Below, piece by piece: positions 5,242-61,376 of a DNA stretch of 64,000 nucleotides. A program made the position numbers and the translations under genes. Location: the NCBI RefSeq assembly GCF_002934445.1, contig NZ_PTJE01000001.1, forward strand, positions 62,001 to 126,000. Reading direction: 5' to 3'. Numbering within the stretch: the stretch's first letter is position 1; every line of letters starts with the position of its first letter. The stretch comes from Nonlabens xylanidelens (GTDB taxonomy: Bacteria > Bacteroidota > Bacteroidia > Flavobacteriales > Flavobacteriaceae). The notes under the pieces were generated by a model. The model was not told where the DNA came from. It ran no database searches and worked only from the letters and a program-made list of their open reading frames with translations.

Positions 5242-6017
5242 TAGTTCGATATTGTAGTGAATAAACTGTTTGAATTTTGAAGCATATCTGGCAATCCTAC
5301 ACATACTTTTTGCACGCCATTTTGAATAGCATAAAAACAATTTTGCATTTTAGGCAACATTCCGTCGGCAATAATCCCTTGAGATTTTAAATCTTGATAA
5401 TTTTCTAAATTGATATTCTTAATTACAGAATCTTCATCTGTAATATTTTGTAAAACTCCTTTTTTCTCAAAACAGTAATACAGTTCTGTTTCATAGTTTT
5501 TGGCTAGTTCGATAGCTAGTTCTGCAGCTAGAGTATCTGCATTTGTATTTAATAATTGACCATGTCCGTCGTGCGTTATGGCGCAAAATACTGGAGTACG
5601 CTTTCGCGAAAGCAACACCTCAACAATCTCTGTATCTACTTTTACAACATCTCCTACATAACCAAAATCTACCTCTTCTACATCTCGTTTTTTAGACAAA
5701 ATAGTATTCCCATCAGCTCCTGTAAATCCTATAGCATTACACTTCTTAGCTTGTAACTTTGCTACAATGGTTTTATTTACTTTACCAGCATAAACCATAG
5801 TGGCAATGTCCAGTGTTTCTGAATCGGTGATGCGACGACCATCGATCATTTTTACCTCAAGATTCATTTTATGAGCTAATTCTGTAGCTACTTTTCCACC
5901 TCCATGAATAAGAACTTTAGGCCCTTTTATCGCAGTAAATGTGGTTAAGAAATCATCTAGTGCTTGCTGATCATTGATAATGTGCCCACCTATTTTTATA
6001 ACTTTAAGCTGTTCCAT
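5241..6017 (-). CDS. argB: N-acylglutamate kinase
   Basis: The 258-residue amino acid kinase fold phosphorylates N-acetyl- or N-succinylglutamate. It starts with VIKIGGHI, the phosphate-binding Gly-rich segment, followed by LIHGGGKVATEL. N-terminal extensions that carry arginine feedback sites in other phyla are absent. TAATG couplings join it to argF upstream and argE downstream. A copy of the dispersed palindrome lies at 5600-5613 and encodes LLSRKRTP within a variable segment of the protein. Confidence 0.95.
   Translation of the reverse strand: MEQLKVIKIGGHIINDQQALDDFLTTFTAIKGPKVLIHGGGKVATELAHKMNLEVKMIDGRRITDSETLDIATMVYAGKVNKTIVAKLQAKKCNAIGFTGADGNTILSKKRDVEEVDFGYVGDVVKVDTEIVEVLLSRKRTPVFCAITHDGHGQLLNTNADTLAAELAIELAKNYETELYYCFEKKGVLQNITDEDSVIKNINLENYQDLKSQGIIADGMLPKMQNCFYAIQNGVQKVCVGLPDMLQNSNSLFTTISN
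5600..5613. repeat. dispersed palindrome copy 1 (14-bp core, in argB)
   Basis: GCTTTCGCGAAAGC, lacking the terminal matching G at one end of the 16-bp consensus; encodes LSRKR in argB. Confidence 0.85.
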
Positions 6018-6955
6018 TATTCTATGTTTTCTAAAATATTTTTTAAAACCACTTGAGCTGCATAGGTTCTATTATTAGCCTGGTGGATGACGATAGAGTT
6101 CTCACTATCTAGCACAGCATCTTCTACCACAACATTTCTTCTTACAGGAAGACAGTGCATAAATTTTGCATTACCTAATTTTTCCTGAGTCATCATCCAG
6201 CTCGCGTCTTGACTTAAAATCTTACCATAATCAGTATAACTGCTCCAGTTTTTCACATAGACAAAGTCGGCTTCTTTCAAAGCTTTTTCCTGATCATAAA
6301 TCACCGGTGTATCTTTTACAACCGCATCAGATAATTCATATCCCTGCGGATGCGTAATCGTAAGATCTACGTTTGCCATTTGCATCACTTCAATAAATGA
6401 GTTTGCCACTGCTTGCGGCAATGCTTTAGGATGTGGCGCCCAAGAAATGACCACTTTGGGTTTTTTCTTGGTTTTCAATTCTTCCAGAGTAATAACATCT
6501 GCAAGAGCTTGTAAAGGATGAGCTGTTGCACTTTCCATATTTACAACAGGTACTGATGCATATTTTATAAAACTATTTAGGACTACTTCTTGAGCATCCT
6601 TTTCTTTATCCACTAAAGAAGGAAAAGCTCTTACCGCAATCACATCTGCATATTGAGAGATGACCTGAGCAGCTTCTTTTACATGTTCAGAAGTGTCTGC
6701 ATTCATCACCGTTCCATCATCAAATTCTAGTTTCCAAGAATCATTCACATTTAATATTTGCACTTCTAACCCTAGATTCTTTGCTGCCTTTTCTGTGCTT
6801 AATCGCGTTCTTAAACTCGCATTAAAAAACAACATTACTAGAGTTTTGTTCTTACCTAGATGTTGAAAATAATATGGTGTTTGTTTTATTGCAATTGCCT
6901 CATCTACTAATTGAGCAAGGTCTTTTATATCTTTAAGTTCAGTGTATTTTTTCAT
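6017..6955 (-). CDS. argF': N-acylornithine (probably N-succinylornithine) carbamoyltransferase
   Basis: The 312-residue protein has the carbamoyl-phosphate motif SLRTR (47-51) and HPLQALAD, and ends with the Bacteroidetes-type MHCLPVRRN motif. It aligns well with the Bacteroides N-succinylornithine carbamoyltransferase and not with classical OTCase, so acylornithine is the expected substrate. The residue that separates acetyl- (Glu) from succinylornithine (Pro) enzymes is Ser89 here (context ADTSEH). From what is known of that position, a small residue favours the succinyl substrate. ATGA and TAATG overlaps link it to argD and argB. Confidence 0.93.
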   Translation of the reverse strand: MKKYTELKDIKDLAQLVDEAIAIKQTPYYFQHLGKNKTLVMLFFNASLRTRLSTEKAAKNLGLEVQILNVNDSWKLEFDDGTVMNADTSEHVKEAAQVISQYADVIAVRAFPSLVDKEKDAQEVVLNSFIKYASVPVVNMESATAHPLQALADVITLEELKTKKKPKVVISWAPHPKALPQAVANSFIEVMQMANVDLTITHPQGYELSDAVVKDTPVIYDQEKALKEADFVYVKNWSSYTDYGKILSQDASWMMTQEKLGNAKFMHCLPVRRNVVVEDAVLDSENSIVIHQANNRTYAAQVVLKNILENIE

Positions 6956-8076
6956 AATTCAGCTTTTAAAGCGTCAAAGAATAAATCGATATGAGATTCT
7001 TTAATCGTTAATGGCGGCAAAATTCTTATCACGTTAGGATTCTTTGCACTACCAGTAAAAATGTGATGATTAAAAAGAATGTTCTTTCTTATTGTCGCAA
7101 TAGGAAAATCAAATTCTAGTCCTAACATTAATCCGCGTCCTTTTACATTTTTAACCTGCGGTAATTCTTGAGCTCTTTTTAAGAAGTGAGCAGATACTGC
7201 TTTTGCATTATCCATTAATTGCTCCTTTTCTATAACATCTAGCACCGTAGAAACTGCGATACATGCCAGATGATTACCGCCAAAAGTCGTACCCAGCAAT
7301 CCATAAGAAGCCTTAATTTGTGGATGGATCAAAATACCACCTACAGGAAACCCATTTCCCATACCTTTTGCCATTGAAATAATATCTGGTTCTAGTCCAT
7401 GTTTTTGAAATGCAAAAAAGTTACCGGTTCTACCAAAACCAGATTGCACCTCATCTGCAATAAAAGAAGTATTGTACTGACGACATAAAGCTTGTAAACC
7501 TTGATAAAATACAGTAGTATCTTCATCTAGACCACCTACTCCTTGAATACATTCTACAATCACCGCGCAAACATTATTCTTATCTAGTGCTTTTTCTACA
7601 GCTTCCAGATCTCCTAATTCAATAATTTCTACTTCTTGTTGTGCATTTAATGGTGCGATAATTTTTGCATTATCTGTAGCCGCCACCGCTGCAGATGTAC
7701 GACCATGAAAACCATTTTTAAAAGCGATTACTTTATGCTTTCCATTATGAAAAGAAGCTAGTTTTAATGCGTTTTCATTTGCCTCTGCGCCAGAATTACA
7801 CATGAATAGTTGGTAGTCTTTACAACCAGAAAAGTCAACTAATTTATGAGCAAGCGCTTCTTGCAATGGGTTTTGAACCGCATTACTGTAAAAGCCTATT
7901 TCAGAAACCTGTTCACTTATATTATTTACATATTCTGGATGAGAATGACCTATAGAAATAACAGCATGACCACCATATAAATCTAGATACTCGACATCAT
8001 TATGATCATAAACATAAACATCTTGTGCACGCACTGGCGTCACATCAAAAAGTGGATAAACATCAAATAAACTCAT
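6952..8076 (-). CDS. argD: acylornithine aminotransferase
   Basis: This class-III PLP aminotransferase of 374 residues converts N-acylglutamate semialdehyde to N-acylornithine. Visible elements are NSGAEAN (94-100, phosphate cup), ADEVQSG (207-213, PLP ring Asp) and SMAKGMGNG with the Schiff-base Lys237. The length is typical of ArgD. The stop overlaps the argF' start (ATGA), and its own start overlaps the proC stop, so translation is probably coupled throughout. Confidence 0.95.
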   Translation of the reverse strand: MSLFDVYPLFDVTPVRAQDVYVYDHNDVEYLDLYGGHAVISIGHSHPEYVNNISEQVSEIGFYSNAVQNPLQEALAHKLVDFSGCKDYQLFMCNSGAEANENALKLASFHNGKHKVIAFKNGFHGRTSAAVAATDNAKIIAPLNAQQEVEIIELGDLEAVEKALDKNNVCAVIVECIQGVGGLDEDTTVFYQGLQALCRQYNTSFIADEVQSGFGRTGNFFAFQKHGLEPDIISMAKGMGNGFPVGGILIHPQIKASYGLLGTTFGGNHLACIAVSTVLDVIEKEQLMDNAKAVSAHFLKRAQELPQVKNVKGRGLMLGLEFDFPIATIRKNILFNHHIFTGSAKNPNVIRILPPLTIKESHIDLFFDALKAEL

Positions 8077-8883: not shown

Positions 8884-9861
8884 TTAAAAAAAGTTGGCTT
8901 TAAGTTGTAAACCTTGATCCTCTGGAAAATCATACATCAAGTTCATATTTTGTACTGCCTGTCCAGACGCACCTTTTAATAAGTTATCGATGACACTCGT
9001 TATCAATAAAATGTCATTATGCTTATGTAGGTGAATAAGACACTTATTGGTATTAACTACTTGCTTTAAATGCACTTCTTTATCGGACACAAATACAAAT
9101 GGCGAGTCTTTATAGTAGTCCTTATAAAAGTCTTTTATTTTTTCTAGTGATAGGTCTATTTTAGTGTAGGCTGTCGCAAAAATCCCTCTACTGAAATCAC
9201 CACGATTAGGCACAAATAACACATTAGAATTAAAATCTTGTTGTGACTGTTTTAAAGTCTGATTTATTTCTCCTAGATGCTGATGCGTAAAAGCTTTATA
9301 GTGTGAGAAATTATTATCTCTCCAAGTGAAATGTGTCGTAGGTGACAGACTTGTGCCCGCACCAGTCGCACCAGTAACCGCATTTACATGCACATCTTCT
9401 TTTATCAATTGTTGTGCAGCTAGTGGTAAAATGGCAAGTTGTATAGCGGTTGCAAAACATCCTGGATTTGCCACATGAGTAGCTTTTTTAATCTCTTCTT
9501 TTTGATACTCGCACAGTCCATATGTGAACTCGCTTTCGCGAAAGCGTGCATATTCTATCAACCTAAAATCATTACTTAAATCGATAATTTTTGTATTCTT
9601 TGAAAATTGATGCTTCTCTAAAAAAGATTTTGAATTGCCATGACCTAGACATAAAAACAAAACGTCCACATTGTTATTTAACTGGCTTGTAAACACCAAA
9701 TCTGTAGTACCCAAAAGATCTTGATGAACATCGCTTACGGCATTACCAGCGTTTGAGGTTGAGTATATAAAATCTATAACTACCTCATCATGGTGAATTA
9801 AAAGTCTTATTAATTCTCCTGCTGTGTAACCTGCACCACCTATTATTCCTGCTTTAATCAT
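8884..9861 (-). CDS. argC: N-acylglutamyl-phosphate reductase
   Basis: The 325-residue NADPH-dependent reductase has the nucleotide-binding GGAGYTAGE (8-16) and the catalytic Cys135 in HVANPGCFATA. It reduces the ArgB product to the semialdehyde used by ArgD. The start overlaps the argG stop by 4 bp. The dispersed palindrome at 9531-9546 is read as RFRES (residues 107-111), a different frame from the argB copy. Confidence 0.95.
   Translation of the reverse strand: MIKAGIIGGAGYTAGELIRLLIHHDEVVIDFIYSTSNAGNAVSDVHQDLLGTTDLVFTSQLNNNVDVLFLCLGHGNSKSFLEKHQFSKNTKIIDLSNDFRLIEYARFRESEFTYGLCEYQKEEIKKATHVANPGCFATAIQLAILPLAAQQLIKEDVHVNAVTGATGAGTSLSPTTHFTWRDNNFSHYKAFTHQHLGEINQTLKQSQQDFNSNVLFVPNRGDFSRGIFATAYTKIDLSLEKIKDFYKDYYKDSPFVFVSDKEVHLKQVVNTNKCLIHLHKHNDILLITSVIDNLLKGASGQAVQNMNLMYDFPEDQGLQLKANFF
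9531..9546. repeat. dispersed palindrome copy 2 (in argC)
   Basis: Perfect CGCTTTCGCGAAAGCG; encodes RFRES. Confidence 0.9.
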
Positions 9862-13575: not shown

Positions 13576-15045
13576 CTAGATGGTTTTCATTGCAATCATA
13601 GAATCTCTCAACACTGCTCCTACTTTTTCTATAGGGTGATTTCTTATAGCTTTATTGACTGCTATTAGTTCTAGGTTGTCTGTTTTGTATTCCGCTTTCG
13701 CGAAAGCGGAACCAATAACAGCCCCATCGAGACCATCTACAAATGAAGAAACTAAAGGCTTACATGCATGGTCAAATAGGTAACAACCATACTCTGCCGT
13801 GTCAGAAATAATGCGATTCATTTCAAATAATTTCTTTCTAGCTACCGTGTTTGCAATTAATGGCAACTCGTGAAGAGACTCGTAATAAGCACTTTCTTCT
13901 ACAATACCTGATGCTACCATAGTCTCAAATGCCAGTTCTACACCAGATTTAATAAAGGCAACCATCGCTACACCATGATCAAAATATTCTTGATCTTCTA
14001 TCTTTTCTGTAGAAGCTGTAGATTTTTCAAATGCCGTGTTCTCCGTTTCGGCTCTCCATTTTAATAGATTTACATCGTCGTTTGCCCAGTCTTCCATCAT
14101 GGTTTGTGAGAAATGACCAGACATAATATCGTCCATGTGTTTTTCAAAAAGTGGTTTTAAAATAACTTTTAACTCTTCAGACAGTTGGTGCGCTTTAATC
14201 TTTGACGCATTATCTAGCCTGTCCATCATATTAGTAATACCACCATGTTTTAAAGCCTCTGTGGTACGTTCCCAACCGTATTGAATAAGATTAGATGCGT
14301 ATTCTGAGTCTGCGCCCTGTGCGATCATTTTATCAAACAATAGTATAGAAGCCGTTTGTAAAACACCACATAAAATGGTCTGTTCTCCCATTAAATCACT
14401 CTTCACCTCTGCAACAAAAGAAGATTCAAGAACTCCTGCTTTATGCCCACCTGTTGCTACTGCATATGCTTTGGCCTGCTCCCATCCTTTATTCTCAGGA
14501 TCATTTTCTGGATGTACAGCTATTAAAGTAGGGACTCCAAAACCTCTTTTATATTCTTCTCTCACCTCAGAGCCTGGACATTTAGGAGCCACCATTATAA
14601 CAGTGATATCTTCTCTTATCTTCTGTCCTTCTTCTACTATATTAAATCCATGAGAGTAAGAAAGTGTTGCCCCTTTTTTCATGTGTGGCATAATCGCCTT
14701 TACCACAGCTGCGTGTTGTTTATCTGGTGTTAGGTTTAAAACTAGATCTGAATTAGGAATTAAATCTTCATAAGTCCCAACAGTAAAACCATTTTCACTA
14801 GCATTTTTAAACGACTGCCTTTTTTGATCAATAGCAGCCTGTCTTAATGCATAAGAAATATCTAATCCAGAATCTCTCATGTTAAGACCTTGATTTAATC
14901 CTTGTGCGCCACAACCTACTATCGTGATTTTCTTTCCTATTAAAGCGTTAACACCATCTTCAAATTCTGCTTGTTGCATGAATCTGCATTTAGATAATTG
15001 TTCTAATTTTTGTGAAAGTGATAGGGTATTAAAATAATTTGACAT
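13576..15045 (-). CDS. ilvC: ketol-acid reductoisomerase, class II
   Basis: At 489 residues this is the long, E. coli-like class II KARI with duplicated C-terminal domain. [18 protein letters not shown] (43-60) is the NADPH Rossmann loop, and long stretches resemble the enterobacterial enzyme. It makes the dihydroxy acids of the valine and isoleucine branches. Residues 447-451 (AFAKA) are encoded by the dispersed palindrome at 13690-13711 and occupy a stretch that differs from the E. coli protein near the C-terminus. Confidence 0.97.
13690..13711. repeat. dispersed palindrome copy 3 (extended, in ilvC)
   Basis: The 16-bp core at 13693-13708 is extended by TTC/GAA on either side to a perfect 22-bp palindrome; encodes SAFAKAE. 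Confidence 0.9.
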
Positions 15046-19620: not shown

Positions 19621-19630
19621 CAATTCAATT

Positions 19631-19694
19631 AAGGGGAAAGATTTGGCTGCTTGCGACCTCGTTTTCAAAAAAGAAAACATAAACGCTAAAACAG
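19631..19694 (+). promoter_or_regulatory. SAM-II-type riboswitch upstream of metK
   Basis: The leader matches the SAM-II layout. AAGGGG...CCTC can form P1 around the conserved loop GATTTGGCTGCTTGC (19640-19654). The 3' segment ATAAACGCTAAAACAG (19679-19694) carries the conserved AUAAA and GCUAAA of SAM-II, and its CAG can pair with CUG at 19647-19649 as the pseudoknot. An extra hairpin GTTTTC-A6-GAAAAC (19661-19678) is inserted between the two halves. SAM-II is known from Alphaproteobacteria and Bacteroidetes, upstream of methionine and SAM genes. Recognition is by eye, without a covariance model. Confidence 0.78.
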
Positions 19695-19765
19695 TGTACT
19701 GCGCAAAACAATACAGCCACTTTTATTTTCTTATATTATTAATCACGCGAGATTTGTATTTATTA

Positions 19766-19781
19766 CGCTTTCGCGAAAGCG
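19766..19781. repeat. dispersed palindrome copy 4 (metK 5' UTR)
   Basis: Perfect 16-mer ending 10 bp before the metK start codon. Confidence 0.9.
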
Positions 19782-19791: not shown

Positions 19792-21048
19792 ATGCCCTAC
19801 TTATTTACATCAGAGTCCGTTAGTGAAGGACATCCAGACAAAGTTGCTGACCAGATCAGTGATGCTTTATTAGATAATTTTCTTGCTTTTGATCCAGAAT
19901 CAAAGGTTGCTTGTGAAACGCTTGTAACTACTGGACAGGTGGTTCTTGCCGGAGAGGTAAAATCAAACACTTACATCGATGCAACTCAAATTGCACGTAA
20001 TGTGATCAATAAAATAGGTTATACCGAAGGTGCTTACCAGTTTTCTGGTGATTCTTGTGGTGTAATATCTTTAATCCATGAGCAGTCGCAAGACATTAAC
20101 CAAGGTGTAGATCGTGCTACTAAAGAAGAGCAAGGTGCTGGAGACCAAGGTATGATGTTCGGTTATGCAACTAACGAGACAGAGAATTACATGCCTCTTG
20201 CTCTAGACATATCGCACAAATTACTAGTGGAGCTTGCTGCATTGCGTCGTGAGAATAAGGAAATTACTTATTTAAGACCAGATGCAAAATCACAAGTAAC
20301 TATAGAGTATAGTGATGATAACGTGCCACAACGTATCGATGCTATCGTAATCTCTACACAACACGATCCTTTTAATGAAGATGATGCTGCAATGCTAGCT
20401 CAGATCAAAAAAGATCTTGTTGAAATATTGATTCCTCGTGTTACTGCATTATTACCTGCTTATGCTCAGGATTTATTTAATGATGACATTACCTATCACA
20501 TTAACCCTACTGGTAAATTTGTTATAGGTGGACCACATGGTGATACTGGATTAACTGGTAGAAAGATTATAGTAGATACTTATGGTGGTAAAGGTGCTCA
20601 CGGTGGTGGTGCTTTTTCTGGTAAAGACCCTTCTAAGGTGGATAGAAGTGCTGCATATGCTGCACGTCACGTTGCAAAGAATCTAGTAGCTGCAGGTCTT
20701 GCTAGCGAGGTTCTTGTACAGGTTTCCTATGCCATAGGTGTAGTAGAACCTACTTCTATTAATGTAGAAACTTATGGTACCTCTACATTAAACTTAACTG
20801 ACGGTGAGATTTCTAAAAAGGTTGCAGAGATATTTGACATGCGTCCTGCTGCAATAGAATCTAGATTAAAATTAAGAAACCCTATCTATTCTGAAACGGC
20901 TGCTTATGGTCACATGGGTAGAACACCACGTATTGAAAAACTTGTTTTTGAATCTCCATACAATGGAAAAGTAGAAAGAGAAGTAGAGTTATTTACTTGG
21001 GAAAAATTAGACTTTGTAGAAGAAGTTAAGAAAGCTTTTGAATTGTAA
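19792..21048 (+). CDS. metK: S-adenosylmethionine synthetase
   Basis: The 418-residue enzyme makes SAM from methionine and [20 protein letters not shown] is the N-terminal ATP-binding hexamer motif and [19 protein letters not shown] the P-loop-like signature. The length is somewhat over E. coli MetK (384) because of extra loops, as in other Bacteroidetes. It is monocistronic: a SAM-II-type riboswitch and promoter lie upstream and a strong terminator downstream. Confidence 0.97.
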
Positions 21049-24082: not shown

Positions 24083-26611
24083 TTAAAAGAAGAAACCAAA
24101 ACTACCAGTAACAGCTACCTGTCTAGCGTCTGGTAAGTAATTATAACCACCTCTAAAACTTACATCTATACGTAATACTTTAAAGATGTTACCTACACCA
24201 GCACTATATTCCCAATAAATATCTTCTGGAGCTAGATAATTAAGACCGCTTGCATTTAAGGCTACGTTTTCATCACTAATTCTACCATAAGCAGCTTTTA
24301 TACCTACTAACTCACGTAGATTCAAATCTCTCAAACCAGGAATGCGAGAAAAAATACGACCGTTAAAATTATGATCAAGATTCACCATCAAATACTCATC
24401 ACTTACAAATTCATAAAAATCCATCGTGTTAAAAGATCCTGACACATTGAAATAAGTCTGGTTACCAGGTATGACATCTAGTAATGCTAGTGGCACTTCT
24501 CCAAAGGTTTTACCAGCTTCTATACGCGCCGTTAATCTACCAAAAGCACCTATCTGGATAGGATGACTATAATAAAATTGAAACTTATCATAATCAAAAT
24601 CGCTACTAAAGAGATCTTTAAAACCTTTAGAATAATTTAAGAATAATATAGGATAAGCTCCTTCATTTATAACCGTACGATCTACACCATAATTAGTCGT
24701 TTTACGTCCTGGTTTATAAGTCATAGAAAAGTCCACTTCAGCCTGGTTAGTTTCTGACTGTATGCCGCCTGGAGAGTCTGCATCAAAATAATCCAGACTA
24801 AAGAATCCAGGATTAGCCGTCGTTATCTTTCTATAACTAGTACCTAATCTAAATTCTAAGTTATATAACGGCTCAAAACTAATGGCAGCAAGACCTAGTT
24901 TAATATTAGATAATCTACCATTATTACCAGCACTTACTATCGCACTAGAAGCAAGGCTACGCCCTAAAACATCATTAGTTTTAGTAAGACTGGCAGCTAG
25001 TTGCTCTACATCTTTTCTATAACCACCACTTAGTATCAAACGGCTTTGTTTATCTAACAACCATTTACCACCTATACCGAATTTAAATTTTTTATCATCA
25101 AAACCATATGCGCCATAACCTTCTATTCTCCATGGGTCATTTGCACCAAAGTATGTTCTACCTCCAGCACGTAATCGCAAACCTTCTACATCGTTAAATC
25201 CAAAGGTGGAAAATATAGGTCCAAAATCAAAACCATCAAATTCATAATAACCAGACGCTAGTACTGTACCTATATTATAAAGACGTTTAAACTTCTTGTT
25301 CTTTTTAAGTGTATCCAGCATGGTGTACACTTGTTTCTCATCTTTATTAAGTTTTTCTAATCGATTTTCATCCCAATAAGCCTCATCGCGATTATAAATT
25401 TCTGGATCATAATCATTAACTCTACGTCTATAAAAATCTGGCTCTTTTTCTATATCAAATTTATAATCATTAAATAAGGTGGTACGTTTTCCATAAATAC
25501 CTTTGGACTTCTCTTTCTTGTTAAGCGCAAAATCACTTAAGAAATAATCACGTGTAATTAAGAACAGACTATCATTAAGTACGTCATATTCCTGTTCTAT
25601 ATAGATTTCTTTTACCCAGTTTATGTTGGCACTTTTAGTCGCTTGCATATTGATCTCCTTGATCGCATACGACTCTGTAGCTACCCAAAAATCACCTTTA
25701 AAAGTAAGCTCACCTTTACGACGCGGATAGTAAACTATATTATATGCCTCTACCCCATCTACTATCGCCGTATCTCTCAACACATAGTTATAGGTGTCAA
25801 TACCACTTTTACCCACTGGACTCGTAAAACTTTTATCAAAGAATTTTAAATAACGGTCATAGACATCTATGTCATTATATAAATCTTTTACAAATGCTAT
25901 TAAAGTCTGGTTGTTTGAAAAACCAGAATTCTTGTTGGCCTTAACATCATCTAGTTCTTTATTGATCTCGTTATCTCCATAAACAGTAGAAAGCGATTCA
26001 TTAATAAAAATAGGCAAATAGGTTTTACCTGTTATTCTACTCGTGTCTGCATAGTCAAATACGAATTCCATACCACGGAAAAGCTTTGAGTTGATCAAAG
26101 AACTATCTATGGTATTCATGTCAAATTCTAACTTCTCATATTTATCGTACTGGTATTGCTTAAATTGGGAAAGACCATTTTTACGTCTATTTTCCCATAC
26201 TTTACGTAGTATATCGATAGCAGGGTTATTCTTTTTAGACGTTTTACCAGCATATACTACCACCGCATCTAACTCTGCCGTATCAGTTTCAAGTGTAACC
26301 TTCATATTTAGATTCACTCTATTATCTAATTTTATGGTTTGCGTTTTATACCCTACAAAAGAAAACTCAACTTTATCATACGTATTCTCTGATTGTAAAT
26401 AAAATCGACCATTATCGTTAGTGATTGTTCCTTCACTAGAACCAGGAAATACAACGTTTGCAAAAGGCACCGTATCACCAAAATCGTCATAAATCACACC
26501 ACCAACTTTAGTCTGTGCAACACTTGTTAAGGTGAAAAGTAATATACCTATATACAGGACTGATTCTGTTATCGCTTTCGCGAAAGCGTAACTTTTATAA
26601 AGAGTTTTCAT
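24083..26611 (-). CDS. DUF5686/carboxypeptidase-like regulatory domain outer-membrane protein
   Basis: The 842-residue protein has a signal peptide ending LTSVAQ, a CarboxypepD_reg-like beta domain (GGVIYDDFGDTVPFANVVF, about 38-120) and a long DUF5686 region ending in a predicted outer-membrane beta-barrel with terminal aromatic FGFFF. Proteins of this class sit in the outer membrane of Bacteroidetes and resemble the TonB-receptor-associated N-terminal domain; the substrate is unknown. The ATG at 26611 is preferred over a TTG two codons upstream. The dispersed palindrome encodes AFAKA inside the signal peptide region (residues 9-13). Confidence 0.85.
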   Translation of the reverse strand: MKTLYKSYAFAKAITESVLYIGILLFTLTSVAQTKVGGVIYDDFGDTVPFANVVFPGSSEGTITNDNGRFYLQSENTYDKVEFSFVGYKTQTIKLDNRVNLNMKVTLETDTAELDAVVVYAGKTSKKNNPAIDILRKVWENRRKNGLSQFKQYQYDKYEKLEFDMNTIDSSLINSKLFRGMEFVFDYADTSRITGKTYLPIFINESLSTVYGDNEINKELDDVKANKNSGFSNNQTLIAFVKDLYNDIDVYDRYLKFFDKSFTSPVGKSGIDTYNYVLRDTAIVDGVEAYNIVYYPRRKGELTFKGDFWVATESYAIKEINMQATKSANINWVKEIYIEQEYDVLNDSLFLITRDYFLSDFALNKKEKSKGIYGKRTTLFNDYKFDIEKEPDFYRRRVNDYDPEIYNRDEAYWDENRLEKLNKDEKQVYTMLDTLKKNKKFKRLYNIGTVLASGYYEFDGFDFGPIFSTFGFNDVEGLRLRAGGRTYFGANDPWRIEGYGAYGFDDKKFKFGIGGKWLLDKQSRLILSGGYRKDVEQLAASLTKTNDVLGRSLASSAIVSAGNNGRLSNIKLGLAAISFEPLYNLEFRLGTSYRKITTANPGFFSLDYFDADSPGGIQSETNQAEVDFSMTYKPGRKTTNYGVDRTVINEGAYPILFLNYSKGFKDLFSSDFDYDKFQFYYSHPIQIGAFGRLTARIEAGKTFGEVPLALLDVIPGNQTYFNVSGSFNTMDFYEFVSDEYLMVNLDHNFNGRIFSRIPGLRDLNLRELVGIKAAYGRISDENVALNASGLNYLAPEDIYWEYSAGVGNIFKVLRIDVSFRGGYNYLPDARQVAVTGSFGFFF
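26573..26588. repeat. dispersed palindrome copy 5 (signal peptide of DUF5686 gene)
   Basis: Perfect 16-mer; encodes AFAKA. Confidence 0.9.
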
Positions 26612-26696
26612 AAGCAAAGGGCAAAAGTCAAAAGTAGGGCTACTGACGTAAATGATAGTAACTTAAGACAAAAAAAATTATATCTAGCTATAAATC

Positions 26697-28828: not shown

Positions 28829-28844
28829 CGCTTTCGCGAAAGCG
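28829..28844. repeat. dispersed palindrome copy 6 (between etfB and etfA)
   Basis: Perfect 16-mer, 63 bp upstream of etfA. Confidence 0.9.
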
Positions 28845-32884: not shown

Positions 32885-32900
32885 CGCTTTCGCGAAAGCG
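32885..32900. repeat. dispersed palindrome copy 7 (upstream of thyA)
   Basis: Perfect 16-mer ending 23 bp before the thyA ATG. Confidence 0.9.
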
Positions 32901-34917: not shown

Positions 34918-34933
34918 CGCTTTCGCGAAAGCG
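34918..34933. repeat. dispersed palindrome copy 8 (upstream of egtB)
   Basis: Perfect 16-mer in the short gap between the 97-residue protein gene and egtB. Confidence 0.9.
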
Positions 34934-35013
34934 AACAATAAAAAAACACAACAATTTCATAAAAGTCTATGAGAACAATAGACTTAAAGAAAAAACACCA
35001 TAAATTTGAGAAG

Positions 35014-41225: not shown

Positions 41226-41241
41226 CGCTTTCGCGAAAGCG
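41226..41241. repeat. dispersed palindrome copy 9 (after the tsf terminator)
   Basis: Perfect 16-mer, 12 bp beyond the end of the tsf terminator T run. Confidence 0.9.
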
Positions 41242-43280: not shown

Positions 43281-43298
43281 TTGTTGTATTTTTCGCAC

Positions 43299-44213
43299 AT
43301 GTTTCTCGCGCTTCACAAATCTAAGCAATTCCTCGCTCCATTGATTAAATTCATCATTGTTGTAATTTGCACATATGCACTTTATTCACAATGGCAAGAT
43401 CGCTCTATAAACACAGACATTATTTGGTCTACCATTAAAAATTTACCGTTTTACACATTACCATTAATGATCGCAATAAGCATACTTAGCTGGATGGTAG
43501 AAAGTAAAAAATGGCAATACTTAATAAATGATCTTTATGTGTTACGCTTTCGCGAAAGCGTAACTCAAAACCTCACCGCGCAAGCAGCCAGCTTTATAAC
43601 TCCTTTTAGAACAGGAGAGTTTGCTGTCAAGTCCTTATATTACAACAAGTCTCTACGCAAAAGCATATTATCAAGAATACTAGCTGGCAACACGTCGCAA
43701 ATGATAATCACTACCATTTTAGGGATTACAGGGATACTATTCTATTTGCAAAAAAACCTAATCATAGAATCGGTATTCTTACTTTTATTTACAGTTACAC
43801 TACTTTGCTTGCTTGCAGTTATACTAACTCTATGGATACTTAAAAAATGGGATTCAGGATCTATGGATAACACAAAGTGGTGGTCTATATTATCTTATTC
43901 TTTATTAAGATATCTTATTTTTTCAAGCAATTGGTTAATAATACTAGCGCTTCTAGATAACGACTCTTCCCTTTTAATAATGATTAGAAACATTACTATC
44001 TTTTACCTAGCCGTTTCTATCATTCCCGTATTTCAATTGTTTGATATAGCTGTAAAATGGACCGTCGCCGCATACGTTTTTACCGAAACTTTCCATAACT
44101 CAGAAACTACAATTATAATTACAACCCTTATCTGGTTTACTAACTCCATCGTACCTACAGTTCTAGGCTGCTTGTTATTACCTTTTCAAAAACTAAAAAC
44201 TGTTGAAGAATGA
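43299..44213 (+). CDS. LPG synthase/flippase-like multi-pass membrane protein
   Basis: The 304-residue hydrophobic protein has about seven membrane helices (for example 15-35, 55-75, 135-155, 165-185, 210-230, 240-260, 275-295), resembling the lysylphosphatidylglycerol synthase transmembrane (UPF0104) family. FRTGEFAVKSLYY is a family-like loop. It is translationally coupled (ATGA) to a GT2 glycosyltransferase, so a role in envelope glycan or lipid transport is inferred. The ATG at 43299 is preferred because it leaves an 18-bp gap to divergent ruvC. The palindrome encodes RFRES (about residues 84-88). Confidence 0.8.
   Translation: MFLALHKSKQFLAPLIKFIIVVICTYALYSQWQDRSINTDIIWSTIKNLPFYTLPLMIAISILSWMVESKKWQYLINDLYVLRFRESVTQNLTAQAASFITPFRTGEFAVKSLYYNKSLRKSILSRILAGNTSQMIITTILGITGILFYLQKNLIIESVFLLLFTVTLLCLLAVILTLWILKKWDSGSMDNTKWWSILSYSLLRYLIFSSNWLIILALLDNDSSLLIMIRNITIFYLAVSIIPVFQLFDIAVKWTVAAYVFTETFHNSETTIIITTLIWFTNSIVPTVLGCLLLPFQKLKTVEE
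43541..43564. repeat. dispersed palindrome copy 10 (extended, in flippase-like gene)
   Basis: The core at 43545-43560 is extended by GTTA/TAAC to a perfect 24-bp palindrome; encodes RFRES. Confidence 0.9.
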
Positions 44214-45832: not shown

Positions 45833-46957
45833 CTATTTTTTGGCAGCTAGAAAGATCTCTTTACGTAAATCCTTACTACGCGCCTCTACATATTCCATAA
45901 AAGAACTATTAGGATACTGACTTATAAATTCCTCATAAAACTCTAACTTCTTAGCTTTATCTGCATAGAATTGATCAGCAGCTAGAACATATTGATAACC
46001 TATAAAATCATTTTCAGGCTTCTCTTTCTTAGCTGTTCTAGTAGCATAAAATGCATTTTTATAATCTCCTTTCTTCACATAAATAGTTGCAAGTTGCAAG
46101 AATTCTTGATGCAATTCTGGTGTTTTAAAAGCAATAGAACTTTCTATACATTGCTGTGCTAGATCTAATTCACCTAGTTTTAAATAAGCTCTAGACATAT
46201 TAAAATATATAAGAGAATTACCATCTTCATAAACCTCGTTATATATTTTATAATTGTCTACAGCTCTCTGCCACTGACTGTCATTAAGATAAGACCAGGC
46301 CAGATTCTTACGGTTATAATCGGTATCATACCCCAATTTAAAAAGCAACTCAAAATGCTTAATCGCCATATCATATCTTTTTGCACCTAGATAAGCTTGA
46401 GCAATAAGACTATTTAGTTTCAAATCGTTCTCATATAAAGCAAGACCCTTTTTTGCATTAAGAATAGCATTATTAAACATCCTTTTTTTAATAAGAATTT
46501 TCACTAACTCTATTCTAGCCGCTCTGTAAGAAACATTTAATGATACCGCTTTCGCGAAAGAAGACACAGCATCATCTTCCCTGCCCAAACCTACATAAGT
46601 CTTACCCATATAATAACGGTATGTAGCATTCTCAGGAAATTCAACTATTAATTTATCTAGAACATCAAAAGCAGTAGCAGGATCATTATTTCCTAAAGCA
46701 AGACGAGCGTACTCAAATCTAGGCTGTACACTTAAACTATCCTTCTTAAAACCTTCTTGATAACTAGATAGAGCGCTATGCACGTCACCTAACTGGCTGT
46801 AAGCTCTCGCAAGTTTAAAATAACTATCATCGGTAGTTTTATAAATCTCGATAGCATTCTTATAATCTCCTATCGATAGTAAGCTATCTGCAGCAGCAAG
46901 CTGTCCATGCATTTTAACAAAGATTAATAATAACAAAATAAGTAAATAGTTTTTCAT
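45833..46957 (-). CDS. exported TPR-repeat protein
   Basis: The 374-residue protein has a signal peptide (MKNYLLILLLLIFVKMHG) and about eight tetratricopeptide repeats spanning residues 25-330 (for example SYFKLARAYSQLGDVHSALSSYQEGF, YRYYMGKTYVGLGREDDAVSSFAKA). It probably scaffolds a periplasmic or outer-membrane complex. The degenerate palindrome at 46547-46560 encodes SFAKA in the fourth repeat. Confidence 0.82.
   Translation of the reverse strand: MKNYLLILLLLIFVKMHGQLAAADSLLSIGDYKNAIEIYKTTDDSYFKLARAYSQLGDVHSALSSYQEGFKKDSLSVQPRFEYARLALGNNDPATAFDVLDKLIVEFPENATYRYYMGKTYVGLGREDDAVSSFAKAVSLNVSYRAARIELVKILIKKRMFNNAILNAKKGLALYENDLKLNSLIAQAYLGAKRYDMAIKHFELLFKLGYDTDYNRKNLAWSYLNDSQWQRAVDNYKIYNEVYEDGNSLIYFNMSRAYLKLGELDLAQQCIESSIAFKTPELHQEFLQLATIYVKKGDYKNAFYATRTAKKEKPENDFIGYQYVLAADQFYADKAKKLEFYEEFISQYPNSSFMEYVEARSKDLRKEIFLAAKK
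46547..46560. repeat. dispersed palindrome copy 11 (truncated, in TPR gene)
   Basis: CGCTTTCGCGAAAG present, then A instead of C: the right end has lost the last two matching bases. Encodes SFAKA. Confidence 0.75.
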
Positions 46958-47535: not shown

Positions 47536-47570
47536 AAGGCAGTTCCTAATTATTAGGGCTGCCTTTTTTT
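47536..47570. terminator. bidirectional terminator overlapping the HAD gene stop
   Basis: AAGGCAG/CTGCCTT with inner CCTAAT/ATTAGG, then seven T. The T run abuts the stop codon of the convergent HAD gene. Confidence 0.85.
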
Positions 47571-48372
47571 ATGCGTTTTGTTCTAACCAAAGAGCAACAC
47601 CATCCTCTGCATGATGTACTGTAGAATATTTTGCCGCCTTTTTAACCACATCTCTTGCATTCTCTACTGCTACACCATAACCTACAGCACCTAGCATATC
47701 TTCGTCGTTGTAATTATCACCAAAAGCAACAACATTTTCCATTCCTATATCAGAAAATCTAAAATCCAACAGCTTTCTTAGAGCTACTTCTTTAGATGTT
47801 CCACTAGGCGTGATTTCGATATAAGTACTTTTAGATCTATAAAGTCGTACACTAGGACCTATTTTCTGTTCCGCTTTCGCGAAAGCGGAATCAATAGCAT
47901 CTCTATCACCCATAAACATAATCTTGTGCGCACCACCTTTATCTTGGGTCTTTTCTAAATAATCCAAAGTAACAGAAACATCCTGCACAGTAGGCTGCAC
48001 TCTAGTATTATGAATTTCTCTCTCAGACCATTTATCCATAGAAGGCACAAACCACTCCTCTTTTCTATAAAGAGATACATGAAGTCCGTTCTCTTGAGCT
48101 ATTTCAGACAACGCTTTTATTTCATTAAAAGGAATACTCAACTCATATAACACCTCTTCTTCATGTAATACAAGGGCACCGTTATAACATATCATAGGAG
48201 ATTTCACTATACCCAAAGCCTCTTGAAGGTAAACCATAGCCTGTGGCATTCTTGCCGAAATAAGGATTTTGGGCATGTCTAGTTTCTCAAGAGAAGCAAT
48301 TGTTCTATCTGATAGGTATCTTTTATCATTTAATAAAGTACCATCTATGTCTGTTGCAAAAAGTTTTATCAT
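47569..48372 (-). CDS. Cof-type HAD-superfamily phosphatase
   Basis: The 267-residue protein has the HAD motif I DIDGT (8-12), the second motif SARMPQA and motif III/IV around GTSKEVALRK and GDNYNDEDM, with a type IIB cap between them. Cof-type enzymes hydrolyse sugar phosphates, nucleotides or phospho-cofactors; the substrate cannot be read. The palindrome at 47869-47890 encodes DSAFAKAEQ inside the cap. Confidence 0.9.
   Translation of the reverse strand: MIKLFATDIDGTLLNDKRYLSDRTIASLEKLDMPKILISARMPQAMVYLQEALGIVKSPMICYNGALVLHEEEVLYELSIPFNEIKALSEIAQENGLHVSLYRKEEWFVPSMDKWSEREIHNTRVQPTVQDVSVTLDYLEKTQDKGGAHKIMFMGDRDAIDSAFAKAEQKIGPSVRLYRSKSTYIEITPSGTSKEVALRKLLDFRFSDIGMENVVAFGDNYNDEDMLGAVGYGVAVENARDVVKKAAKYSTVHHAEDGVALWLEQNA
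47869..47890. repeat. dispersed palindrome copy 12 (extended, in HAD gene)
   Basis: 22-bp perfect form, same extension as the copies at 13690 and 54116; encodes SAFAKAE. Confidence 0.9.
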
Positions 48373-52434: not shown

Positions 52435-52450
52435 CGCTTTCGCGAAAGCG
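52435..52450. repeat. dispersed palindrome copy 13
   Basis: Perfect 16-mer, 7 bp beyond the dipeptidase terminator. Confidence 0.9.
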
Positions 52451-54115: not shown

Positions 54116-54137
54116 TTCCGCTTTCGCGAAAGCGGAA
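54116..54137. repeat. dispersed palindrome copy 14 (extended, intergenic)
   Basis: 22-bp perfect palindrome, same TTC/GAA extension as copies 3 and 12. Confidence 0.9.
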
Positions 54138-56930: not shown

Positions 56931-58031
56931 ATGCAATCTTTTTTCATCTTTTGCAGCGGTGCTGATGCTGAGTTACTTGATCAGTGCAGCGCAGGCGAGC
57001 GTAATAAGTATGCCGGTATAGGCGCAACGGTTTTCTTTACCGCACTTATGGCATTTTTTGCAGCCAGTTATGCGCTATTTACCGTTTTTGATAGTTACTG
57101 GATAGCCGGTGCTTTTGGATTGGTTTGGGGTTTATTGATCTTTAATCTGGATCGTTACATTGTTTCTACACTTAAGAAAAGTGATCGCAAAATCAATGAA
57201 TTATGGCAGGCGGCACCTCGTATTGTTTTAGCACTTATTATTGCTGTTGTGATTTCAAAACCTCTTGAATTAAAAATATTTGAGAAAGAAATCGATCAGG
57301 TTCTTCTGGAAGAGAAAAACGCGATGACCTTAAATAATCAAGAGCAAGTTGCTAGTTTATTTGCTGTTGAGGAGTCCGCTTTCGCGAAAGCGATACAAGA
57401 ATTAAAATCTGAAATCACCACAAAAGAAGCCGAAGTAGAAGCCTTATACTCCACGTATATTACAGAAGCCGAAGGAACATCTGGAACTAACAAACTAGGA
57501 AAAGGACCGGTTTACAAGGAGAAACGAGAAAAGCATGATGCTGCTATGGCAGAACTTAAAGAACTAAAAGCTTCAAATGCCGATAAAATAGCGGCCATAG
57601 AATTACAACTAGCCGACTTAAACACTAAAGAAACGGTACAACTAGCCGCATCACAACCGATCATAGAAAACGTAGACGGACTCATGGCGCGTATTGAAGC
57701 CTTAAATAAATTGCCTTTTATCACATCATTTTTTATCTTCTTACTGTTTCTAGCCATAGAAACATCTCCTATCATTGCCAAATTATTATCCCCTAGAGGT
57801 GAGTATGATTACAAATATGCAGAGCGAGAAGATCTCGTTATATCATGGGTAACACAACAAAAGCAACAGCAAACCGTACTTACACAAACTGATAAAGAAT
57901 TAAATAACCGAGTCTATAAAGACATCGCAGACGAGGACGAACTCTATACCTACAAAAAGAAAATAGCAAGAGAACTCATGCAAAAACAAGCCGATGCTTT
58001 CTATAAAAAACAGAATGGAATTTTAGGGTAA
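56931..58031 (+). CDS. DUF4407 membrane protein
   Basis: The 366-residue protein has N-terminal FFIFCSGADAELLDQCSAGERNKYAGIGATVFFTALMAFFAASYALF, typical of DUF4407, three early membrane helices (about 28-48, 52-70, 90-106), a long Lys/Glu/Ala coiled coil (about 115-250) and a fourth helix (about 258-278). The function of DUF4407 is unknown. The ATG at 56931 follows directly on a terminator T run, without room for a ribosome-binding site. The palindrome encodes AFAKA in the coiled-coil part (about residue 150). Confidence 0.82.
   Translation: MQSFFIFCSGADAELLDQCSAGERNKYAGIGATVFFTALMAFFAASYALFTVFDSYWIAGAFGLVWGLLIFNLDRYIVSTLKKSDRKINELWQAAPRIVLALIIAVVISKPLELKIFEKEIDQVLLEEKNAMTLNNQEQVASLFAVEESAFAKAIQELKSEITTKEAEVEALYSTYITEAEGTSGTNKLGKGPVYKEKREKHDAAMAELKELKASNADKIAAIELQLADLNTKETVQLAASQPIIENVDGLMARIEALNKLPFITSFFIFLLFLAIETSPIIAKLLSPRGEYDYKYAEREDLVISWVTQQKQQQTVLTQTDKELNNRVYKDIADEDELYTYKKKIARELMQKQADAFYKKQNGILG
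57377..57392. repeat. dispersed palindrome copy 15 (in DUF4407 gene)
   Basis: Perfect 16-mer; encodes SAFAKAI. Confidence 0.9.
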
Positions 58032-58151: not shown

Positions 58152-59180
58152 TTACACAATCCATCCATTCTCACGAGCGTGAGTAACGGCTTCTTTAGAT
58201 TCTTTTACTAATAACATAGGACATATGGTAAAACCGTCGGCAATGGATTTTACTCTCAACATTTTCTTTTTGTGATCTACAGACCTTAAATAAATAGCCA
58301 TTATACGATCAGGAAATTGTTGTGCGACGTCTTTATAATAATCTGCATCGTGCTCTCCACTATCACCTATAAGAATAAACTTCATATGTGGATAGTGTTT
58401 TAAGATATTGATAAGTTCGTGCTCTTTATGAGGTCGTTTTAATTTGGGCGTTCTATCCCATGGAGTCGGAAAATCTCGCAATAAAATAGGTCCTTTAGGA
58501 AACCCATGAAAGTCAAGAAATTTCTCTAGGTATTTGTATAAATTCCATGGACTATTACTCAAATAGAACATTGGGTTTTGATCGTTACTTGACGAGCCTC
58601 TATGTAATAATTGATAAAAACTAGCAGCACCTTTTAAGGGTAAACGACGGTCATAATTCTTAAAAAAGGTATTAAAAGCCACTCGCATTTTAAGAAAACT
58701 AGTCACACCAGTATGCATTATAGTGTCGTCTATATCACTTATAACTCCATAAGCCGCAGTTTCTAGAGGTATTAATGACTCTCCAGAGAATTTATTTATT
58801 TTGAGACGTTTTTGTCGTTTCGCTTTCGCAAAAGCGGAATTATCTTCATCAAAACTAACCGTAAAGGATAAGTATCCTTCTTTATCTGTTAATGCATCAA
58901 GGTCTATATCAGTTTTAATATTGAAGAGAAAATAGCCTTCGTGGTCTGCTTTTACTTCAAAAAACTTACCGTTAGGCAAAGTTAATTTTACCTGAGCATT
59001 TCTTATCTCATCTGTAGCAAAAGTACGCCAGGTATTACGCAGCGTCTGATACAAGGTCTGTTGTTCATAATGTTTTAATGGCTGGTCTTCTAGCGCGCGA
59101 CCACGTATATACAAATGGTTTGCACCACTATACGTACGATAAATGTCGAGAATCCAAGGATCACGTTTAAAAATTGCCAT
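58152..59180 (-). CDS. App1-family (DUF2183) phosphatase
   Basis: The 342-residue protein has an N-terminal beta-sandwich domain (about 1-135) and a C-terminal HAD-like catalytic domain with DIDDT (149-153), a DxDxT active site. App1 catalytic domains act on phosphatidic acid in fungi; a phospholipid or phosphoprotein substrate is possible here. The near-perfect palindrome encodes SAFAKA at residues 115-120, in the linker before the phosphatase domain. Confidence 0.85.
   Translation of the reverse strand: MAIFKRDPWILDIYRTYSGANHLYIRGRALEDQPLKHYEQQTLYQTLRNTWRTFATDEIRNAQVKLTLPNGKFFEVKADHEGYFLFNIKTDIDLDALTDKEGYLSFTVSFDEDNSAFAKAKRQKRLKINKFSGESLIPLETAAYGVISDIDDTIMHTGVTSFLKMRVAFNTFFKNYDRRLPLKGAASFYQLLHRGSSSNDQNPMFYLSNSPWNLYKYLEKFLDFHGFPKGPILLRDFPTPWDRTPKLKRPHKEHELINILKHYPHMKFILIGDSGEHDADYYKDVAQQFPDRIMAIYLRSVDHKKKMLRVKSIADGFTICPMLLVKESKEAVTHARENGWIV
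58821..58836. repeat. dispersed palindrome copy 16 (one mismatch, in App1 gene)
   Basis: CGCTTTCGCAAAAGCG, one G to A change in the centre; encodes SAFAKAK. Confidence 0.8.
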
Positions 59181-59416: not shown

Positions 59417-59512
59417 ATTTTGATTTTAAGAGAAATGACAAAATTAAGAAATAAAGCCTAGTAAGGAAAACTAGCTTATCTTATTACTTATGATAAATAG
59501 CACTCTATATGA

Positions 59513-59561
59513 AACTTTAAAAGCAAGGTAATAGCATATCTAACACCTTGCTTTTAAAGTT
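59513..59561. terminator. terminator downstream of the radical SAM gene
   Basis: 17-bp stem (59513-59529 with 59545-59561) ending in AACTTT/AAAGTT; the flanking T tracts are modest. Confidence 0.65.
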
Positions 59562-59578
59562 TTTATTACATTATTGTG

Positions 59579-60538: not shown

Positions 60539-60650
60539 TTTATCTTTTTATAGACTGTTGCTAGCAATCCATTTTCCTCATGTCGAGGTACTCTATCTAT
60601 AAGAAAGAAGTGCCACGGTCTTTCTTTATTTTAATTGTTTTAAATCGCTA

Positions 60651-61376
60651 TTAATTAAACTGTTTCCAGAAAGCAGCCTCTTGTTGTGCACCGCTATCTA
60701 CGTCATCATAAAAATCTTGCTTAGATTCATATCTTTTAAAATGACCTAATTCTATTTTACCTATATGATCTCCCATAGTCAGTGCTTCTTTTAAATCATG
60801 AGTAATGAATATAGAAGTAAGCTTCATTTTCTTAGAGAGCTTTTTAAATAGTTCTTGCATTTGCACACGAGTCTCAGCATCTAGCGCTCCAAATGGCTCG
60901 TCTAACAGCAATACTTTGGGCTCAATGATTAATGCTCTTGCAAATGACACACGCTGTCTCTGTCCACCAGAAAGCTGGTGAGGCATTTTCTCTGCATGTT
61001 CTTCTAGACCTATTTCTGCAAGCATGTGCTCCACCTTAGTTTTAATCACATCTGGTGATTGCTTACGTATCTTTAAACCAAATGCTATGTTCTCTGAAAC
61101 ATTAAGGTGAGGAAATAGCAAGGGTTCTTGGTATAGATAAACTATGTTTCTTTTATTAGGTGGCGTGTCGTTCATCCGCTTTCGCGAAAGCGAAATAGTA
61201 CCATCATCTTCTTTTTCTAATCCAGCTAATATTTTTAATAAAGTCGTTTTACCACTACCTGATTTTCCTAAAACACTGAGCACCTCATGTTCTTGCAGCA
61301 TAAAACTAACGTTGTGTAAAACGGTCTCACTGCCGAAGCTTTTGGTAATATTATCTATGTGTAAAAGTGGTTCCAA
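60651..61376 (-). CDS. ABC transporter ATPase, YnjD-like
   Basis: The 241-residue ATPase has Walker A GKSGSGKTT (37-45), signature LSGGQ (135-139), Walker B LLLDE (156-160) and the H-loop FITHD. It energises the two permeases encoded upstream; 5 bp separate it from the nearer. The palindrome at 61178-61193 encodes LSRKR (62-67) in a loop after Walker A. Confidence 0.9.
   Translation of the reverse strand: MEPLLHIDNITKSFGSETVLHNVSFMLQEHEVLSVLGKSGSGKTTLLKILAGLEKEDDGTISLSRKRMNDTPPNKRNIVYLYQEPLLFPHLNVSENIAFGLKIRKQSPDVIKTKVEHMLAEIGLEEHAEKMPHQLSGGQRQRVSFARALIIEPKVLLLDEPFGALDAETRVQMQELFKKLSKKMKLTSIFITHDLKEALTMGDHIGKIELGHFKRYESKQDFYDDVDSGAQQEAAFWKQFN
61178..61193. repeat. dispersed palindrome copy 17 (in ABC ATPase gene)
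   Basis: Perfect 16-mer; encodes LSRKR, the same frame as the argB copy. Confidence 0.9.

Follow-up and report, generated by a model that had tools for sequence, protein, structure and literature searches.

A palindrome dispersed through the window

The stretch analysed here (the window) is 64,000 nucleotides of the Nonlabens xylanidelens genome (contig NZ_PTJE01000001.1, positions 62,001 to 126,000), with a GC content of 33-37% per 8 kb, and the element in question is a 16-bp palindrome, CGCTTTCGCGAAAGCG, that is dispersed through it. At up to three mismatches the window contains 17 matches, of which 14 are perfect, two have one mismatch and one has two, while 100 dinucleotide shuffles searched at the same threshold gave a mean of 0.12 matches and at most two. 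The original prediction for this DNA had counted 14 perfect and three decayed copies, as we do, and its chance estimate of 1e-6 to 1e-5 copies is about right (our own arithmetic gives ~2e-6). It had placed the copies at 5600-61193, which is correct in extent but one too high in its coordinates, the true span being 5599-61192.

The sites, perfect unless noted, fall in genes as well as between genes. Those inside open reading frames (ORFs) are found at 5599..5614 in an AA_kinase ORF (5241-6017(-); one mismatch, the last base being A), at 9531..9546 in a semialdehyde dehydrogenase-family ORF, probably ArgC-like (8884-9861(-)), where the site is read as RFRESE, and at 13693..13708 in the ketol-acid reductoisomerase gene ilvC (13576-15045(-)), where it is read as SAFAKA. 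Further copies lie at 43545..43560 in ORF 43281-44213(+), read as RFRESV and differing from the nearest relative by substitutions with no gap, at 46547..46562 (two mismatches) in a TPR ORF (45833-46957(-)), at 47872..47887 in a HAD hydrolase ORF (47569-48372(-)), at 57377..57392 in a DUF4407 ORF (56931-58031(+)), at 58821..58836 (one mismatch) in an APP1_cat ORF (58152-59180(-)) and at 61177..61192 in an ABC transporter ORF (60651-61376(-)). The copy at 26573..26588 is in the 5' end region of a DUF5686 ORF (24083-26617(-)) and may precede its true start. Between genes, sites occur at 19766..19781 in a divergent spacer, 10 bp ahead of ORF 19792-21048(+), at 28829..28844 between two ETF genes, at 32885..32900, 23 bp ahead of the thymidylate synthase gene thyA (32924-33748(+)), at 34918..34933 ahead of an egtB-like ORF (34969-36180(+)), at 41226..41241 after the EF-Ts ORF (40188-41153(+)), at 52435..52450 in a convergent spacer and at 54119..54134 in a divergent one. 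We used thyA as the anchor for comparison across genomes, since ilvC passed the threshold in no more than 6 of the 23 genus genomes. Of 20 stretches from other species, 19 have a core 12-mer near the place of the ETF-region site, at -3.7 to -4.4 kb relative to thyA.

Abundance in the genome, the genus and the family

A genome-wide count had been set beforehand as the test of whether the motif rises above background outside the window; it does so by far, with 579 perfect copies of CGCTTTCGCGAAAGCG in the 3.28-Mb genome and none of its reversed control. Among 59 genomes searched, all 23 of the host genus, N. xylanidelens included, hold 180-737 copies, and 35 of the 36 outside the genus hold none, the remaining one having four. 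The 12-bp core was also counted in 397 genomes of the family drawn from a larger group. Four of these belong to the genus, N. xylanidelens being one of them, and contain 566-685 copies; one genome of a second genus has 445, one of a third has 917, and the other 391 have 0-21. The survey of related genera that the original prediction had proposed thus finds copies essentially limited to the genus, plus one genome each of two other genera. Among 80 named ilvC loci the motif was found only in that of Dokdonia sinensis, with eight core copies in 21 kb, and the D. sinensis genome contains 917 core copies, the same figure as the third-genus genome.

When the 80 named ilvC loci were screened for repeated words as a possible second dialect of the motif, nothing comparable was found apart from D. 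sinensis. The leftovers of this screen are a palindrome that locus L076 has three times, a simple repeat in L036 and, in Kordia, a longer repeat; a 21-kb Kordia locus (L040) has CTGAACTTGATTCAG at four places (4342, 4405, 11572 and 21094), with partly similar flanks. A literature search of titles and the beginnings of abstracts, preprints aside, returned no paper on the motif or its core 12-mer, and 'highly iterated palindrome' together with Bacteroidetes gave none either.

A sharp core between two biased arms

The anatomy of the site was determined in 464 kb of the contig (the window and the following 400 kb), which contain 108 core 12-mers and 88 full 16-mers. The numbers of 16-mers with zero to four mismatches are 88, 25, 9, 2 and 10, compared with means of 0, 0, 0.03, 1.1 and 12.4 for 200 permuted control palindromes, and 16 of the 25 single mismatches fall at the outermost pair. 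Perfect 14-mers outnumber those with one mismatch by 105 to 14 in this sample, and by 83 to 6 in genome G002, 55 to 6 in G007, 16 to 0 in G022 and 21 to 6 in D. sinensis. On either side of the GC-rich core lies an AT-rich arm. When the right arm is reverse-complemented and pooled with the left (the sides were also examined separately), T is favoured 10, 11, 14, 17 and 19-21 positions away from the dyad, and between positions 11 and ~25 C is scarce (0-16% depending on the position, versus ~18% far away), with a similar profile at genic and spacer sites; on one strand, left arms are enriched in T and G, right arms in A and C. The site is therefore a nearly invariant palindrome of 14-16 bp within T-rich, C-poor arms that reach ~25 bp from the dyad.

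An arm score averaged 4.7 at our own sites, which are its training set, against -5.7 at random positions. Among other species it is 4.1 in G002 and 5.5 in G022, intermediate in D. sinensis (1.9) and weak in G234 (-2.5), which besides D. sinensis is the other high-copy genome outside the genus; hits in viral contigs score -0.8. The 22-24 bp to which some copies had been said to extend are real in single copies and do not reflect paired flanks across the 108 sites. Because the flanks pair no more than column composition predicts (at position 9, for example, 35 of 108 versus 36.4 expected), these longer palindromes most probably arise incidentally, from two arms that are independent of each other but have similar biases.

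Placement and spacing

By a simple ORF-based gene call, in which coding DNA makes up 88.5% of bases, 57 of the 108 sites are in genes and 51 in spacers. The call is imperfect, since the site at 5599 was counted as spacer although the AA_kinase ORF covers that position. Genic sites use all three frames (33, 14 and 10 sites, read as xAFAKA, RFRESx and xLSRKR, respectively), and this, together with the spacer sites, rules out the common codon pattern that had been named as an observation that would undo the original prediction. Spacer sites are codirectional in 34 cases, divergent in 10 and convergent in seven, proportions that track the available bases, so that a role in transcription is disfavoured. 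Nor does the site resemble an intrinsic terminator, because the flank after the palindrome is A-rich rather than T-rich.

Sites are spaced more evenly than expected. The coefficient of variation of the gaps in the N. xylanidelens genome is 0.45, compared with ~1.0 under the null (0 of 5000 shuffles as low), and it is likewise low under a second null that keeps the gene and spacer proportions. We then pooled pairs of sites from this genome, G002, G007, G022 and D. sinensis and, for 15 further species, from 20-kb stretches. G013 and G004 were omitted because they are closely related to genomes already in the pool, which is still not fully independent, as sites in some of the 15 species are shared through common ancestry. 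Observed pairs numbered 7 below 1 kb (78.0 expected), 31 at 1-2 kb (76.1 expected) and 65 at 2-3 kb (73.0 expected), and beyond that the ratio is ~1. N. xylanidelens alone has one pair below 1 kb where 25.3 are expected, and G234, kept separate, has none where 1.7 are expected. Because pairs are scarce only at short distances, with a ratio of ~1 beyond 3 kb, this is a short-range exclusion rather than a periodic lattice. It is not absolute, as two sites lie 75 bp apart in one species.

Along a complete chromosome sampled every 200 kb (20 stretches of 20 kb, one with 7488 N), we counted 84 sites, with 0-7 per stretch and no regional trend visible by eye. The bias towards origin or terminus that the original prediction had proposed to look for was thus not seen in these stretches. 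The only sampled stretch of G002 without a site (L249, G002:C1:200001-220000) consists of three giant ORFs of ~5.3-6.1 kb.

How sites arise and persist

Of the 108 sites, 26 could be aligned between N. xylanidelens and its nearest relative (~90% identity), the other 82 lying outside compared or aligned DNA. Both genomes have 23 of the 26, and the three that differ do so by substitutions with no gaps. Starting from the sites of the relative, 9 of 34 did not align and 23 of the other 25 are shared. G007 and G004 share 47 of 51 and 48 of 51 aligned sites, where the neutral expectation is 0.61. Of the seven sites that differ between these two, three have a single substitution, three carry a 21-bp GC-rich insertion at the dyad or beside it, and the last is a complex remnant. 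In these two close pairs core identity is 0.995 and 0.981 versus 0.947 and 0.898 overall, so that the core diverges 5-11 times less than the aligned DNA as a whole; the arms evolve close to the background rate.

In distant species, spacers aligned too poorly for insertion to be distinguished from substitution, and we used the close pairs and protein alignments. Of the genic sites, 19 of 57 have alignable homologues in the genomes available. Among 128 alignments to homologues without the site, some of them distant (31-40% identity), 42 are ungapped, 79 have gaps of one or two residues somewhere in the ~30 residues displayed, and gaps of at least three residues are found in the query in five and in the homologue in two. 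For example, a homologous stretch is overwritten by the site in the ArgC-like protein, in IlvC and in a third protein that, from a motif in it, we take to be a DNA polymerase III alpha chain. These alignments indicate that sites arise by substitution, not by insertion.

The insertions noted above have an identity of their own. At three loci that differ between G004 and G007, the 16-mer is interrupted, at its dyad or beside it, by a GC-rich palindrome of 20-21 bp (CCTGCCTGCCGG and its mirror). Similar GC-rich palindromes were noted in D. sinensis, where one of the two apparently lies within a half-decayed site, and in G022, where their placement in sites is not clear; the stretches concerned are those of G004 and G007 (L167-L186) and L201, L203, L204 and L206. 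The motif seems to be the target of a tiny mobile palindrome, much as the highly iterated palindrome of cyanobacteria, HIP1, is described as the target of the SDR5 module (PMC4390886).

Sites in mobile and unshared DNA

A heavy-metal resistance island, with an RND pump, a P-type ATPase, a multicopper oxidase and an ArsP permease (by Pfam search of one copy, L187), was found by blastn in seven stretches (L187-L193) from six genomes of other Flavobacteriaceae genera, with one to five sites in each; in L187, two sites lie 933 bp apart inside a single outer-membrane efflux gene. These sites are probably a sign of past residence in the host genus. In Leeuwenhoekiella (loci L268-L287), core 12-mers number 8 and 14 per genome and are scattered, mostly with weak arms, and two of the 14 resemble the metal island (L280), which suggests remnants or a weak version of the system.

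In viral contigs, 41 stretches carry the 16-mer, several of them high in GC, armless and chance-like. One phage lineage has four distinct core sites, with matching contexts, in the pieces read of each of two ~30-kb contigs. Portal, head and tape-measure genes are present on L237 and an integrase gene adjoins a site on L212; this lineage is probably temperate, because L212, with the integrase gene, shares its site contexts with L237. Searching with the portal protein gave five contigs, the query included, all of which were already among the motif-bearing ones, and the 1687 portal matches in a phage collection, all below 60% identity, named no close relative.

Relative to close relatives, unshared DNA has about half the site density of shared DNA (12 sites in 88.6 kb versus 156 in 606.7 kb), a figure that sums four overlapping comparisons, one of which has no depletion.

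Candidate readers of the site

ComEC is present in all 23 genomes of the genus and DUF5689 in 22, the single miss being a genome that is 77% complete; DUF5689 is found as well in 12 of 13 other genomes of the family and in 9 of 23 from other families of the order. The DUF5689 gene follows an ORF of 856-958 aa, whose stop is within 300 bp, at 13 of 13 genus loci (856-957 aa) and at 8 of 8 outgroup loci, and in the N. xylanidelens pair, the one searched against Pfam, this ORF encodes a CarboxypepD_reg protein. At 10 of the 13 genus loci (the others being G000, G005 and G016) a site lies ~3.02-3.06 kb before the DUF5689 start, near the start of the outer-membrane gene. A transposon screen in Riemerella anatipestifer reports essential transformation proteins without homology to known machinery, which include a DUF5689 protein and a carboxypeptidase-regulatory-like predicted outer-membrane protein with consecutive locus numbers (PMC8459023), and Riemerella columbina is described in another study as preferring its own DNA (PMC7965970). 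By family and gene order, the pair in our genus can be likened to the Riemerella pair, with orthology putative.

ParB and its paralogue Noc were also considered. ParB_N gives one hit in 20 of 23 genus genomes, and the extras in the other three are proteins of 602-616 aa. No Noc-like paralogue is therefore common to the genus in this search of 23 genomes. The helix-turn-helix of ParB is otherwise close to that of outgroups, with GKSRSA in 4 of 4 genus proteins and GKKRST in 2 of 2 outgroups, the two differing residues falling where the recognition helix presumably lies. Given the single hits and this similarity, Noc or ParB as the reader is disfavoured, judged from these proteins, but the two differing residues may reflect a changed ParB specificity. 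Canonical parS was not found in the stretches read around parB in the genus or in two outgroups. Like the 16-bp palindromes that ParB and Noc read, our site has TTTC and GAAA half sites, but it differs in their spacing, in its hundreds of copies without regional trend and in the lack of a shared second ParB. It differs from the macrodomain sites matS, parS and Noc also in that neither restriction to nor exclusion from the origin or terminus was seen, in a chromosome whose origin we did not locate.

As for methylases, the C5 family PF00145 (E<=1e-10) was found in 14 of 23 genus genomes and not in nine, and the N6/N4 family PF01555 (E<=1e-8) in 10 and not in 13. Both are absent from N. xylanidelens, for all its 579 perfect sites, and from G007, G009 and G010, with the search confined to these two families. 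No dedicated methyltransferase common to the genus, such as the original prediction had suggested looking for beside the motif, was thus found in either family.

A proposed uptake or self-recognition signal

Among the functions that had been left open for the motif, a mobile palindrome is contradicted, a target of a HIP1-type methyltransferase is disfavoured for the two families searched, and a site tied to origin or terminus was not seen. This leaves two candidates, an uptake signal and a binding site spread over the whole chromosome. We favour, at a probability of roughly 0.4, the reading that the palindrome and its arms are an uptake or self-recognition signal, similar to the DNA uptake sequence (DUS) of Neisseriaceae and the uptake signal sequence (USS) of Pasteurellaceae and read by a pilus-independent flavobacterial competence machinery. 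This appears somewhat more likely than a chromosome-wide binding site because of the 1-2 kb exclusion, the symmetric arms and the presence of a pilus-independent competence locus throughout the genus.

The distribution features that could be compared mostly fit such a signal, a likeness in genomic behaviour that falls short of proving membership in the DUS/USS family. According to three papers, DUS and USS occur in hundreds to thousands of copies, are clade-specific, lie in genes and spacers at non-random kilobase-scale spacing and, for USS, have AT-rich flanks (PMC7811141, PMC1939737, PMC2397512). The motif shares their genome-wide over-representation in genes and spacers, their even kilobase-scale spacing and their clade specificity, and in pooled comparisons, though not in the N. 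xylanidelens genome itself, it is sparser in unshared DNA. In Neisseria, DUS spacing is reported to match the length of conversion tracts, and 34.5% of DUS in one genome are in genes (PMC2397512). In contrast to DUS and USS, which are non-palindromic and 9-12 bp long, the motif is palindromic, 16 bp long and armed on both sides; its core is more strictly conserved, its uptake function is putative, and in place of a machine of the type IV pilus (T4P) kind (T2SSE was not found in 20 of 23 genomes) the genus has pilus-independent competence markers.

Under this reading, the site would be a chromosome-wide self-marker that serves in DNA uptake and recombination. A dimeric receptor of the T4P-independent machinery may bind the site preferentially on free DNA, fragments that bear a site would be taken up and recombined more often, and this bias could spread and maintain sites by substitution and recombination. 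A second site within one recombined tract would gain little, which may explain the exclusion over 1-2 kb. More tentatively still, the signal may be a long, palindromic, two-armed one of Bacteroidota that is read by DUF5689 with its CarboxypepD_reg outer-membrane partner, or with a periplasmic partner, its spacing being set by the recombined tract. We know of no earlier uptake signal of such a form, a long palindrome with two symmetric arms.

Several observations speak against an uptake signal. The PilB-type ATPase T2SSE was found in only 3 of 23 genus genomes, N. xylanidelens included (controls 13 of 14), and a classic T4P uptake machine is therefore unlikely for most of the genus. DUF5689 is as common in motif-less relatives (12 of 13), and so it does not account for which genomes have sites. 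Our literature search found no uptake experiment on the host genus. Divergence near sites shows a weak gradient in one species pair and none in the other, and the unshared DNA of the N. xylanidelens genome is not depleted, with seven sites in 26.7 kb (2.63 versus 2.25 per 10 kb). The core is sharper than that of Neisseria DUS, with 105 perfect and 14 one-mismatch 14-mers as opposed to 1892 DUS and 815 DUS-1 in N. meningitidis Z2491, and the phage lineage carries sites, whereas DUS are reported to be absent from recently acquired genes (PMC2397512). A sharp core fits strong selection as well as drive.

The strongest rival, which we consider rather unlikely, is a site of chromosome architecture, at which some dimeric protein on about one site per 4-5 kb would bridge, loop or organize the nucleoid, sites less than 1-2 kb apart being useless or harmful and removed. 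It would account for the lack of a regional trend along the complete chromosome (84 sites, 20 stretches), the indifference of placement to transcription, the sharp core with few one-mismatch copies, the symmetric arms to ~25 bp, as expected of a dimer with extra contacts, and the sites in the phage lineage; moreover, the presumed recognition helix of ParB has two residues that distinguish the genus from two outgroups, which may reflect a changed specificity. It explains the sharp core, the phage sites and the undepleted unshared DNA of the genome better than uptake does. However, no candidate protein beyond ParB was found and no Noc-like paralogue is shared, and genomes just beyond the clade lack these hundreds of sites.

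Less probable by far is a HIP1-like origin, in which sites are the by-product of a dedicated DNA methyltransferase or of methyl-directed repair acting on an internal sequence. The original prediction had likened the motif to HIP1 in kind with another sequence, and this holds for the style of spread, both being highly iterated palindromes in one clade, born of substitution in genes and spacers (for HIP1, by the title of a paper cited in PMC4390886) and, as described in that source, targets of small nested insertions; the GC-rich palindrome at or next to the dyad of some copies parallels SDR5. Unlike HIP1 (GCGATCGC, present once in the window), the motif is of unrelated sequence, twice as long, present at ~1 per 5 kb and flanked by biased arms, and its relatives are Flavobacteriaceae, not cyanobacteria. 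Neither methylase family is shared across the genus, PF00145 missing from 9 of 23 and PF01555 from 13 of 23 genomes, with four, our own included, lacking both. Comparably improbable is a Chi-type hotspot of recombination or repair recognized inside the cell: a genome-wide density of ~1 per 4-5 kb and arms rich in T+G on the left and A+C on the right would suit it, but a Chi site requires orientation, which a palindrome lacks, an exclusion zone is not expected and no consistent divergence signal is seen near sites. A mobile palindrome copied by a transposase, as in repetitive extragenic palindromic (REP) or miniature inverted-repeat transposable element (MITE) families, would explain many near-identical copies in genes and spacers but is very improbable, contradicted at orthologous loci by close pairs with substitutions or an insert inside the site and never an empty site or target duplication, by gaps of at least three residues in the homologue near the site in only 2 of 128 protein alignments, and by the avoidance of close copies.

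Uptake signals in the literature cited here come mainly from two proteobacterial families that use type IV pili, and HIP1, known since 1995, has to our knowledge no agreed function. If the motif is an uptake signal, it would represent an independent, sharper and palindromic system within Bacteroidota, and the genus offers 23 genomes and a competence locus known from genetics in a relative. Drive, selection and spacing rules could then be tested anew, and a recently found pilus-independent competence machine would gain specificity. Should it prove to be an architecture site, the chromosome would have a sequence-specific landmark along its whole length, and the distance over which sites exclude one another could be measured. 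In either case the motif works as a barcode, as the metal-resistance island in other genera and the phage lineage carry its sites.

Other features of the window

Upstream of ORF 19792-21048 there is a SAM-II riboswitch at 19627-19699, barely above the gathering score and ~66 bp before the site in that spacer. At 34969-37139, EgtB- and EgtD-like ORFs adjoin, indicating synthesis of the ergothioneine type. The ilvC gene of the window (13576-15045) has counterparts at E<=1e-100 in only the 6 of 23 genus genomes mentioned above, which suggests auxotrophy for branched-chain amino acids across much of the genus.

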